From: Janthinobacterium rivuli
GTDB taxonomy: Bacteria; Pseudomonadota; Gammaproteobacteria; Burkholderiales; Burkholderiaceae_D
Reading direction: 5' to 3'
Length of the DNA: 64,000 nt
Assembly (NCBI RefSeq): GCF_029690045.1
Contig: NZ_CP121464.1
Location: forward strand, 992,001-1,056,000
The notes beneath the pieces are model-generated. The model searched no databases and was not told where the DNA came from. It saw nothing but the letters and a program-made list of their open reading frames with translations. Shown piece after piece: positions 16,884-30,724 of this stretch. Position 1 is the first letter of the stretch. Each line of letters starts with the position of its first letter. Made by a program: the position numbers and the translations under genes.

Positions 16884-18380
16884 TTAAAACCCTCCATCCA
16901 GGCCATCTTGCACTTGTTCGGCGGCGCGCAGCACGGCGCGCGCCTTGTTTTCAGTTTCCTGCCATTCCATTTCGGGGATGGAGTCGGCCACGATGCCGGC
17001 CGCGGCCTGCACGTACAGCATGCCGTCCTTGACCACGCCCGTGCGGATGGCGATGGCCACATCCATTTCGCCGCCAAATGACAGGTAGCCGCAGGCGCCG
17101 CCGTAGATGCCGCGCTTGGTGATTTCCAGTTCGTCGATCACTTCCATGGCGCGCACTTTCGGCGCACCCGTCAGGGTGCCGGCGGGGAAGGTCGCGCGCA
17201 GCACGTCCAGGTTAGACAGACCCTTCTTGAGGGTGCCTTCCACGTTCGAGACGATGTGCTGCACATGCGAGTATTTTTCGATGACCATGCGGTCGGTGAC
17301 GTGCACGCTGCCCGTCTCGGCAATGCGGCCGATGTCGTTGCGCGCCAGGTCGATCAGCATCACGTGCTCGGCGATCTCTTTCGGGTCGGCCAGCAGCTCG
17401 GCCGACAATTCGGCGTCGCGCTCCGGCGTGGCGCCGCGCGGACGGGTGCCGGCGATGGGGCGCAAGGTGACTTTCTTACCGCCGTCCGCCGTCTTCTCGT
17501 TGCGCACCAGGATTTCCGGCGAGGCGCCGATGATTTGCATGTCGCCGAAATTATAGAAGTACATATACGGCGACGGGTTGAGCGAACGCAAGGCGCGGTA
17601 CAGGGTCAGCGGCGAATCGACGTATGGTTTGCGGATGCGCTGGCCGATCTGCACCTGCATCAGGTCGCCTGCCATCACGTATTCATGCGCCTTGGCGACG
17701 GCCTTCAGGTAGTCTTCCTTGGAAAAGTCGCGGATGGTTTCCGTGCGCACGGAAGCGCTGGTGACGGGCGCATCGACACCGCGGCGCAGCATCATGCGCA
17801 AGTCCTTCAGGCGCTGCTGCGCTTTCGAAAACGATTCGGGCTGCGTGGTGTCGGCGTAAACGATCAAATACAGCTTGCCGGACAGGTTGTCGATGACGGC
17901 CAGTTCTTCCGTCACCATCAGCTGGATGTCGGGCAGCTTCAAGTCATCTTTCGGCGCGCCGCCGGCCAGCTTTTTCTCGATGTGGCGCACGGTGTCGTAG
18001 CCGAAGTAGCCGGCCAGACCGCCGCAGAAGCGCGGCATGCCGGGGCGCAGGGCCACTTTGAAGCGCGACTGGAACTGCTCGATGAAGTCGAGCGGATTGC
18101 CTTCGTGCTCTTCGATCACGACGCCGTTCTTGACGATTTCGGTGCGCTTGCCATAGCTGCGCAATACGGTCGTGGCGGGCAAGCCGATGAAGGAATAGCG
18201 GCCGAAGCGTTCGCCGCCGACGACGGATTCGAGCAGGAAGGTGTTCTTGCCACCTTGTTGGGCCTGTGCCAGTTTCAGGTACAGGGTGAGCGGCGTTTCC
18301 AGGTCGGCGAACGCTTCCGCGATCAGGGGGATGCGGTTGTAGCCTTGCTGGGCCAGCGATTTGAATTCGAGTTCGGTCAT
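16884..18380 (-). CDS. trpE: Anthranilate synthase component I
   Basis: 498 residues. It converts chorismate and ammonia from TrpG to anthranilate, the committed step of tryptophan synthesis. The N-terminal allosteric motif [16 protein letters not shown] with the LLES core suggests feedback inhibition by tryptophan. The catalytic half contains [35 protein letters not shown] and [12 protein letters not shown]. The start at 18380 has GGAGAG seven bases upstream; an in-frame ATG at 18422 is less likely. A Trp-codon leader peptide and a terminator lie in the 250 bases before it. Confidence 0.96.
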
Positions 18381-18442
18381 GTTTCTCTCCATGCCGTCAG
18401 GGTATGAGTGTGCATAGTGCACAAACCCTGCGGTGGGTTATC

Positions 18443-18504
18443 AAAAAACTTGCCGGTACATGCAACATGCGCAAAATGCGCAAAGGACGCGTGTGCAACC
18501 GGCA
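18443..18504 (-). promoter_or_regulatory. Attenuator terminator before trpE
   Basis: On the minus strand, TGCCGGT (18498-18504) pairs with ACCGGCA (18451-18457); TGCA arms and a TGCGCA self-complementary inner hairpin lie within. AG and six T (18443-18448) follow, 63 bases before the trpE start. An alternative pairing is CTGGCAG (18532-18538), at the last Trp codon of the leader, with CTGCCGG (18499-18505). This would block the terminator stem. Confidence 0.7.
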
Positions 18505-18525
18505 GCAATCGTAACGGCTCGGCCC

Positions 18526-18618
18526 TTAGGCCTGCCAGGATTGCCAGCGTCGCCAAAGCCAGGCCTCAATCGAGCCGGTTTGGGTGACATTGTGTTTTTT
18601 GATGAGAAACTTGTTCAC
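18526..18618 (-). CDS. trpL: trp operon leader peptide with four Trp codons
   Basis: Thirty-codon frame starting with GTG at 18618 and ending TAA at 18526-18528. Its last twelve residues read AWLWRRWQSWQA, so four of eleven consecutive codons (residues 20-30) are TGG. It lies between gph and trpE and is followed by a terminator hairpin that overlaps a possible antiterminator. This is the classical arrangement for ribosome-mediated attenuation: shortage of charged tRNA-Trp stalls the ribosome and favours transcription into trpE. No good Shine-Dalgarno precedes the GTG, and no ATG exists upstream in frame. It is too short for standard gene callers. Confidence 0.72.
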   Translation of the reverse strand: MNKFLIKKHNVTQTGSIEAWLWRRWQSWQA

Positions 18619-18649: not shown

Positions 18650-19354
18650 TTAGTTTTGCATGCTAATACAACGGGCTGCTTCGAGCAGTGTCTTTACTAT
18701 ACCATCGGAATCGGTATCGTGTATAGAGTGTCCGTGATTGTAGCCATACGGTACCGTCAATACGGGGCAGGCCGCAGCCCTGGCCGCTTGCGCGTCATTC
18801 GAGGAGTCGCCGATGGCCACCACTTTGGATGGCGCCAGGTCGAAGTCCGCGCACACTTGCAGCAGCGGCATGGGGTGCGGTTTTTTCTGCGGCAGCGAAT
18901 CGCCGCCATAGACGATCTCGAAATACTGGTCGAGGTTTTTCAGTTTCAGCAGGGGCAGGGCGAAGGCGATGGGCTTGTTGGTGACGCAGGCCAGGCGCAA
19001 GCCCGCCGCCTTCATCGCCGCCAGTCCCGCTTCCACGTCCGGGTAGAGGGTACTGAACTGGCCGTTGATGGCCAGGTAGTGGCGCTGGTAGCCGTCCATC
19101 GCCTGCTCGAAATGCTGTTCCACGCCGGCCGCATCGAAGTCGAGCGCCAGCACGGTGCGGATCAGGTTTTCCGAGCCTTTGCCCACCATCAGCTTGATGG
19201 TGTCGGCGCTGATGGGCGCCAGGTCCAGTTCGGCGCGCATGCCGTTGATGGCGACATGGAAATCGGGCACGGTGTCGAGCATCGTGCCATCGAGGTCGAT
19301 GATGGCGGCGCGCACGCCGGCCAGTACGTGGTCTTTCACCGTGCCCGCTTGCAT
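18650..19354 (-). CDS. gph: Phosphoglycolate phosphatase
   Basis: 234 residues of the HAD superfamily. Nucleophile motif IDLDGTMLDT is near residue 18, motif II VTNKP near residue 124, a Lys in KKPHP, and the acidic motif GDSSNDAQAA near residue 178. It removes phosphate from 2-phosphoglycolate. Its start overlaps the rpe stop (TGATG), the common rpe-gph order, so the two are translationally coupled. The trp leader begins 32 bases after its stop. Confidence 0.93.
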   Translation of the reverse strand: MQAGTVKDHVLAGVRAAIIDLDGTMLDTVPDFHVAINGMRAELDLAPISADTIKLMVGKGSENLIRTVLALDFDAAGVEQHFEQAMDGYQRHYLAINGQFSTLYPDVEAGLAAMKAAGLRLACVTNKPIAFALPLLKLKNLDQYFEIVYGGDSLPQKKPHPMPLLQVCADFDLAPSKVVAIGDSSNDAQAARAAACPVLTVPYGYNHGHSIHDTDSDGIVKTLLEAARCISMQN

Positions 19355-30202: not shown

Positions 30203-30318
30203 TGCCTGATGACCATAGCAAGTTGGTCCCACCCCTTCCCATCCCGAACAGGACCGTGAAACAACTTTGCGCCGATGATAGTGCTGCAACCAGTGTGAAA
30301 GTAGGTTATCGTCAGGCT
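30203..30318 (+). rRNA. rrf: 5S ribosomal RNA, copy 1
   Basis: 116 bases. The terminal helix is formed by TGCCTGA and TCAGGCT. The body contains CCCATCCCGAACAGGACCGT and the loop E region. It is the normal distal gene of the operon, 136 bases after 23S, and is followed by a terminator at 30341. Confidence 0.95.
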
Positions 30319-30608: not shown

Positions 30609-30724
30609 TGCCTGATGACCATAGCAAGTTGGTCCCACCCCTTCCCATCCCGAACAGGACCGTGAAACAACTTTGCGCCGATGATAGTGCTGCAACCAGT
30701 GTGAAAGTAGGTTATCGTCAGGCT
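30609..30724 (+). rRNA. rrf: 5S ribosomal RNA, copy 2
   Basis: 116 bases identical to copy 1, with the same AAGTTATG lead-in and TGTTAT tail. It lies beyond the terminator of copy 1, so it should depend on its own promoter at 30521-30549. A terminator follows at 30740. Confidence 0.95.

Follow-up and report, generated by a model that had tools for sequence, protein, structure and literature searches.

Does the short stretch of DNA between gph and trpE in Janthinobacterium rivuli sense the supply of tryptophan, and if it does, does it act on the transcription of trpE, on its translation, or on both? The window, meaning the whole stretch of 64,000 nucleotides that was analysed, carries here a Trp-rich reading frame followed by a hairpin and a run of T, which an initial annotation made from the letters alone took to be a trp attenuator. 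All the elements it named are present between gph and trpE at the coordinates it gave; the strand, which it left out, is the minus strand. Profile matches bear out both flanking genes, gph upstream and trpE downstream, and the order on the minus strand is gph, leader, trpE, and then trpG, trpD and trpC. Elsewhere in the window, an rRNA operon holds two tandem 5S rRNA genes of equal score (30205-30317 and 30611-30723). The identity of the site as a trp attenuator is well supported by comparison with relatives, and the leader probably turns on the tryptophan-synthesis genes when tryptophan runs out. The site includes the following features:

18650 to 19354, minus strand: gph (phosphoglycolate phosphatase), the upstream gene; NCBIfam NF009695/TIGR01449 above cut-off
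18696 to 18704, minus strand: promoter-like extended -10 box TGGTATAGT within the 3' end of gph, with a candidate start at about 18690
18526 to 18618, minus strand: leader ORF with a GTG start and 30 codons, without a Shine-Dalgarno (SD) sequence; ORF reading and comparison
16884 to 18380, minus strand: trpE (ATG at 18380), first gene of trpEGDC; TIGR00564 above cut-off

The leader frame (18618-18526) encodes VNKFLIKKHNVTQTGSIEAWLWRRWQSWQA. As first described, it is a GTG-started frame of 30 codons with four Trp among its last eleven, the TGG codons being numbers 20, 22, 25 and 28 (18561-18559, 18555-18553, 18546-18544 and 18537-18535). The initial annotation had proposed aligning the leader across relatives to look for these codons. 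The best 80 of 578 TrpE relatives were kept as named loci, from Janthinobacterium, Massilia, Duganella, Collimonas, Undibacterium, Herbaspirillum and other genera, and also from Cupriavidus, Pandoraea and Burkholderia latens. A neutral scan for a short frame with at least two Trp in its last 16 residues finds a leader upstream of trpE in 80/80 of these best relatives. A motif scan finds it in 110/110 loci (the 80 named and 30 whole-genome loci); this motif includes the first two Trp and the next Arg, whose invariance is thus by construction. The typical peptide among relatives reads MFL.KKR/H...EAWLWRRWQSW. A predicted leader peptide with clustered Trp stands directly upstream of the trp operon. 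Three of the leader peptides, searched against Pfam and NCBIfam, matched no family.

The leader starts lack an SD, only 1 of 110 having one at -4 kcal/mol or better; 105 of 110 trpE starts have an SD. Janthinobacterium no longer has the ATG at which its relatives start: it is AAG in the window (18612-18610) and ACG in most of the genus, which leaves the GTG two codons before it as the start. The Arg codon that follows the second Trp (codon 23, 18552-18550 in the window) is CGA in 71 and CGT in 5 of 76 distinct ORFs, whereas CGA is rare in trpE, at 38 of 2528 Arg codons (78 loci). This rare codon adjoining the Trp codons is kept across families. Leader codons 2-10 use TTT and AAA at 73% and 93%, against 18% and 41% in trpE, a bias that reads as a sign of constraint at the RNA level. 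The Leu between Trp codons is kept as a residue and varies in its third base (66/76); Pro takes its place, as W-P-W, in 10 of the 76 distinct ORFs (loci L030, L035, L067, L069-L075, L077, L079 and L080). Selection on the peptide itself was considered and set aside as not separable from codon constraint.

Upstream of the leader, TGGTATA, the core of the extended -10 box, lies within 260 nt in 109/110 loci, with 0.005 expected in shuffles. In the window this box is inside gph, and gph coding may contribute to its conservation. It is confined to the window's relatives, as only 1/29 of the compact loci described below carries TGGTATA. A different box, TACAAT, is found just before the trpE SD, in the last 45 nt, in 20/110 loci (L026-L028, L041, L047, L053 and others), in places within a small CGCTG..TACAATAGCG hairpin, and may serve as another promoter, independent of the leader.

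Between the leader and trpE stands a predicted intrinsic terminator, with two arms:

18498 to 18504, minus strand: terminator 5' arm TGCCGGT; hairpin scan, folding and covariation
18451 to 18457, minus strand: terminator 3' arm ACCGGCA; hairpin scan, folding and covariation

The hairpin and its six T are as first described, except that T6 (18448-18443) ends 62 bases before the trpE ATG at 18380, and not 63. A hairpin with a T-rich tail follows the leader in 98 of 106 distinct regions, and the terminator has a dG of -8 or lower in 88% of the 106 regions, against 28% of 147 shuffled regions. In addition to the window, the 69-row alignment (A1) includes 68 of the 80 named loci; Cupriavidus, Pandoraea, Burkholderia, L044 and L045 were excluded. 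In it the stem pairs in 77.2% of cells vs 61.4% when shuffled, and its covariation score of 0.445 vs 0.199 is reached by 0/500 shuffles, which makes the terminator the best-supported part of the model first put forward. The U-tract is interrupted in some lineages, namely Herbaspirillum, several Undibacterium and Pandoraea.

The two further pairings of the initial annotation both exist in the window but fare less well among relatives. CTGGCAG (18538-18532) with CTGCCGG (18505-18499), its antiterminator, is weakly conserved, at 58.5% of cells paired vs 55.7 shuffled (5/500); its last pair forms in just 10/68 sequences, and it is the best leader:spacer complement in 5/93 relatives. CGGCTCG (18577-18571) with CGAGCCG (18521-18515) was rejected, its covariation score lying below all 500 shuffles. 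What comparison upholds of the attenuator interpretation is the leader and the terminator. A commoner pairing uses these strands:

18539 to 18546, minus strand: 5' strand TGGCAATC of the conserved antiterminator; best complement in 26/93 relatives
18503 to 18510, minus strand: 3' strand GATTGCTG of the conserved antiterminator; overlaps the terminator 5' arm

This candidate, which sequence comparison presents as a conserved alternative antiterminator, pairs in 84.0% of cells (82.5% shuffled). Its leader strand is nearly invariant among relatives, and GAT[TC]GC occurs in 63/98 spacers, with 5.8 expected. Slid by 3 columns, the pairing falls to 66.4% and its covariation score is slightly higher, so that covariation says little for it. 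The complementarity of the antiterminator barely exceeds what shuffled spacers give (mean z -0.39; mean empirical p 0.29).

The structure model of the initial annotation is also incomplete, having missed two long-range helices, P1 and P2, that tie the first leader codons to the trpE ribosome-binding site (RBS) and the U-tract:

18604 to 18610, minus strand: P1 5' strand GTTTCTC (leader codons 3-5); minimum free energy (MFE) fold, own partner beats swapped in 61/85
18381 to 18387, minus strand: P1 3' strand GAGAAAC, within the trpE SD and up to the ATG; MFE and comparison
18594 to 18603, minus strand: P2 5' strand ATCAAAAAAC (leader codons 6-9); own beats swapped in 95/105
18440 to 18449, minus strand: P2 3' strand GTTTTTTGAT, the terminator U-tract; MFE and comparison
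18389 to 18436, minus strand: hairpin just before the trpE start, taking the first two G of the SD; MFE only

Both helices are contained in the MFE structure of the 250-nt region, which has a z of -5.14 with 0/200 shuffles as low; the exact 176-base stretch first described, folded alone, is less striking (z -2.04, 6/200 shuffles as low). The trpE SD, GGAGAG (18390-18385, minus strand), is paired in the MFE structure except for one base, and the modelled default fold has the trpE RBS sequestered. For P1, compared on short segments around both starts, the own partner is better than the swapped one at p 6e-5. Relatives carry paired changes such as TTTCTC:GAGAAA to TTCCTC:GAGGAA, and the helix is weak in several Undibacterium and Cupriavidus rows. 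In an ungapped register P1 is 76.9% paired, with shuffled partners at 74.1% and the maximum of 500 at 76.1%. With long segments, the own-vs-swapped comparison within the window's family yields nearly nothing (-22.6 vs -21.7, median rank 0.43).

For P2, where the entire spacer was searched for its best complement, the own spacer wins at p 3e-17. A6-type leaders have GTTTTTTG in 60/70 spacers. The variants are ACAACAAACG:CGTTTGTTGT in Herbaspirillum, ATAACAAACG:TGTTTGTTAT in Undibacterium and CAAGAAACGG:CCGTTTCTTG in Pandoraea, and compensatory change keeps P2 also in lineages whose U-tract is broken up (TTTGTT, TTTCTT). Taken together, P1 and P2 are paired in 80.5% of cells vs 77.2 +/- 0.4 and have 47 double-changed cells vs 20.3, each reached by 0/500 shuffles; two of the five measures lie within the shuffles (145/500 and 24/500). 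The effect of relatedness among the sequences is still present in all these controls. Helix 4 pairs in 86.7% of cells; helix 3, the two outermost P2 pairs, does so in 33.6% and is not conserved. The pairing predicted to hide the trpE RBS appears, in these comparisons, to be conserved by compensatory change, and P1, P2, the terminator stem, the leader and the promoter-like box are all supported at the level of sequence. That the leader start region is complementary to the trpE start site hints at a second, translational switch.

How a ribosome on the leader might alter these structures was modelled by folding with and without ribosome cover, a check proposed by the initial annotation, and the outcome is divided: a ribosome at the stop codon frees the terminator 5' arm, but the arm also pairs when no ribosome is present. 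In the window, before the terminator 3' arm is made, upstream pairing of the 5' arm is 0.67, 0.75, 0.70 and 0.84 with the ribosome at W20, W22, W25 and W28, 0.69 without a ribosome, and 0.01 with the ribosome at the stop. Because the pairing is also high without a ribosome and at W25 and W28, there is no clean switch. Once the 3' arm is present, the terminator wins in every modelled state (0.86-0.92), so antitermination would have to be kinetic. Over 93 relatives, mean upstream pairing of the 5' arm is 0.57 at W1, 0.40 at W2 and 0.20 at the stop, and pre-terminator pairing at W1 exceeds the stop state in 80 of them.

The weakest step of the proposal, judged from the models, is the opening of the trpE RBS. 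In 96 distinct regions of the window's family (longer ones skipped), RBS openness is 0.29 free and 0.29 with one ribosome at the first Trp codon, a single stalled ribosome opening the site in 1/96 regions. With a queued ribosome openness is 0.50, above the stop state in 85/96 regions; the values for the window itself are 0.24, and 0.52 with a queued ribosome. Since one stalled ribosome leaves the RBS unchanged, translational control would depend on a further ribosome behind it on the leader. The lack of an SD on the leader speaks against heavy ribosome loading. Alternatively, P1/P2 would close the transcript only once the leader has been translated for the first time.

The explanation that we regard as best, and as moderately probable, is a sensor of Trp starvation for trpEGDC, in which attenuation at Trp codons has two outputs, termination and RBS occlusion. 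The progress of a ribosome through TGG codons 20 and 22 of the short leader would set the RNA fold. With Trp plentiful, the ribosome would reach the stop codon and cover the antiterminator strand, the hairpin and six U would form, and transcription would end. In transcripts that read through, P1 and P2 would shut both start sites, of the leader and of trpE, by pairing the first leader codons to the U-tract and to the trpE SD and start region. With Trp short, the ribosome would stall at the first Trp codons, TGGCAATC would pair with GATTGCTG before the terminator 3' arm is made, and the polymerase would continue; ribosomes queued or starting on the leader would hold P1/P2 open, and trpE would be translated. 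We infer the Trp response from the codons; a kinetic mode of antitermination and everything proposed for translation are likewise inferred.

Evidence bearing on the translational output comes from compact relatives without a clear terminator, which the initial annotation had missed. The region upstream of trpE was surveyed in 47 families of the order (92 regions, drawn from 186 matching genomes). Of the 92, 42 have a frame in which ten residues include three or more Trp, vs 4 on the reverse strand, and beyond the window's family there are candidates in 40/87 regions. Eleven of the 40 were dropped by judgement, for the most part because the spacer was long or the frame lay within gph (L121, L122, L125, L133, L140, L157, L169, L170, L177, L182 and L193); of these, L140, L170 and L193 may be genuine leaders with a long spacer. 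The 29 loci kept, from 18 families, often have a leader ending in ...WRWR(R), and their leaders stop 40-101 nt upstream of trpE. Between two Trp stands CGA in 50/63 cases from 12 families; in trpE of 38 such loci CGA makes up 67 of 1172 Arg codons. Beyond the order, but within the class, a Trp-rich frame was found in 31/60 loci, 13 with W-R-W, under a lax rule with no control.

From leader to trpE, the compact regions have a mean fold z of -3.35 (21/29 at -2 or lower) vs two upstream controls with -0.32 and -0.04 (p 8.5e-12); where no leader was detected (47 loci), the mean is -1.04, with 11 at -2 or lower. In the MFE structures, 9-17 of the 19 RBS bases are paired to the leader in 25/29 loci; two further loci have 7 such bases and two have none. 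When the compact families were aligned with MAFFT, RNAalifold recovered almost none of the long hairpin, whose arms fail to align by sequence, so own and swapped partners were compared instead. The leader:RBS duplex scores -34.0 with its own vs -24.8 with a swapped partner (34 of 40 loci used), the own partner being better in 13/13 of family f22 (p 2e-4) and 16/21 of family f5 (p 0.005). Family f22 has 24 loci (20 scripted, 6 not anchored, 14 with a leader), and f5 has 30, of which 21 carry a W-x-W leader and 9 do not (L206, L208, L209, L213-L216, L219 and L229). By eye, some of these nine appear to keep a one-Trp frame and an ACTCC:GGAGT pairing. Locus L130 has an inverted repeat of ~27 bases across the leader and the trpE RBS (z -9.5), perhaps an inserted repeat element with the same sequestering role. 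Terminator-like T-tailed hairpins (-6 or below) occur in 17/40 compact loci vs 22.5% of shuffles, which is not convincing. Modelled RBS openness in compact leaders goes from 0.27 free to 0.38 when stalled at the first Trp (33/59 loci). A queued ribosome raises it to 0.50, and a ribosome at the stop (59 loci) or at the last Trp codon leaves it at 0.27.

A broader history is plausible, though we lean slightly against it. The leaders may form a large, apparently undescribed family with a TGG-CGA-TGG core, across Betaproteobacteria into other Gammaproteobacteria (in the GTDB sense), in which the leader ORF is the strand hiding the trpE RBS. Translational attenuation would be the older form, to which the window's Oxalobacteraceae version added a terminator, its U-tract still being one strand of the old helix.

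Simpler accounts must be weighed against a switch with two outputs. The site could be a classical transcription attenuator only, made of Trp codons, antiterminator and terminator, with P1 and P2 as non-regulatory by-products of start-codon and A/T-rich sequence. The strong conservation of the terminator stem and U6, the correct order of leader and antiterminator, and the folding model in which the RBS does not respond to a single stalled ribosome agree with this account. It is nevertheless rather unlikely, given that P2 is retained by compensatory change where the U-tract is broken by TTTGTT or TTTCTT, that P1 covaries, and that compact relatives keep the leader:RBS pairing mostly without a convincing terminator. 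The opposite simplification, by which translation alone is attenuated and the hairpin and U-tract belong to the RBS-hiding fold, ending little or no transcription, draws on the same persistence of P2 in Herbaspirillum, several Undibacterium and Pandoraea and on the compact relatives. Its difficulty is that GTTTTTTG, in 60/70 A6-type leaders, sits beside a strongly covarying GC-rich stem and so has the look of an intrinsic terminator, and that one stalled ribosome fails to open the RBS in the folding model; we consider it improbable.

Action by the leader peptide or the terminated leader RNA in trans, as reported for peTrpL of Sinorhizobium meliloti, or arrest of the ribosome by a nascent W-R-W-R chain, would fit the conserved non-Trp residues (WRRW, WRWR) and the Leu kept with a varying third base in 66/76. 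The flanking codons CGA, CGC, GCC and CAA are fixed as well, however, so that RNA or codon constraint suffices, and the peptides matched no family, which leaves this account very unlikely. The peTrpL peptide differs from the leader peptide of the window. Scarcely credible is a chance frame or relic, untranslated, with only RNA structure or gph/trpE constraint conserved: it would explain the missing SD and the altered start codon in Janthinobacterium, but Trp codons, frame and stop are kept over 110 loci, with other forms across families.

Amino-acid attenuation itself is textbook knowledge. If the preferred explanation and the compact family both hold, trpE in a sizeable part of Betaproteobacteria would be controlled by a leader whose coding strand occludes the gene it regulates. 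The natural series from terminator-poor to terminator-bearing switches would then be a place to examine how translational and transcriptional attenuation interconvert. A warning also follows, that conservation of a U-tract may reflect pairing and not termination alone.

At this site, the Rfam model Trp_leader (RF00513) had no match at gathering or among matches up to E 10, where only two chance-level hits to Rfam appeared, and none of 20 loci of both kinds, window-type and compact, matched any Rfam family at gathering. No description of this leader was found in the literature searched, a search that had most subscription papers outside its coverage. In the trp leader of E. coli, a leader peptide with Trp codons is followed by a hairpin and U-tract and by an alternative pairing that overlaps a terminator arm, and the ribosome mediates transcription attenuation. 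The present leader resembles the enterobacterial one (RF00513) in its Trp codons before trpE, its hairpin and U-tract, and its candidate pairing over the terminator arm. It differs in that the leader covaries with the trpE RBS and U-tract, and in its Trp codons, which are spaced as W-x-W-R-R-W and accompanied by a rare CGA codon that hardly varies.

Outside the enteric bacteria, attenuation of Pseudomonas putida trpE and trpGDC is reported in the title of Olekhnovich and Gussin 2001, as cited in PMC8297930, and the likeness, a trpE of a non-enteric proteobacterium under attenuation, extends as far as that title. PMC8297930 also describes premature 3' ends beside a uORF with a GTG start in the leader of P. 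aeruginosa trpGDC. The 2013 survey PMC3766115 places amino-acid leader motifs mainly in gammaproteobacteria, with four Rfam leader models at that time. The peptide peTrpL, with a function in trans reported in an excerpt of PMC7298713, shares with the present one that it is the leader peptide of a trp attenuator. The erm-type translational attenuators, which sense a drug-stalled ribosome according to an excerpt of PMC5118997, are similar in that the state of leader translation decides the opening of an inhibitory stem-loop over the downstream gene; here, by contrast, Trp starvation is the probable signal and a terminator is also present. In the actinobacterial LEU element, as described in part of Seliverstov et al. 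2005 (PMC1262725), leader Leu codons pair with the leuA SD in a pseudoknot, so that it is the regulatory codon run that pairs with the SD, whereas here it is the leader start region. By analogy, enterobacterial trp attenuation, P. putida trpE attenuation and the LEU element appear closest in logic, and what we judge to be new beside them is that a Trp attenuator also carries a proposed lock, formed by covarying pairing between leader and RBS.
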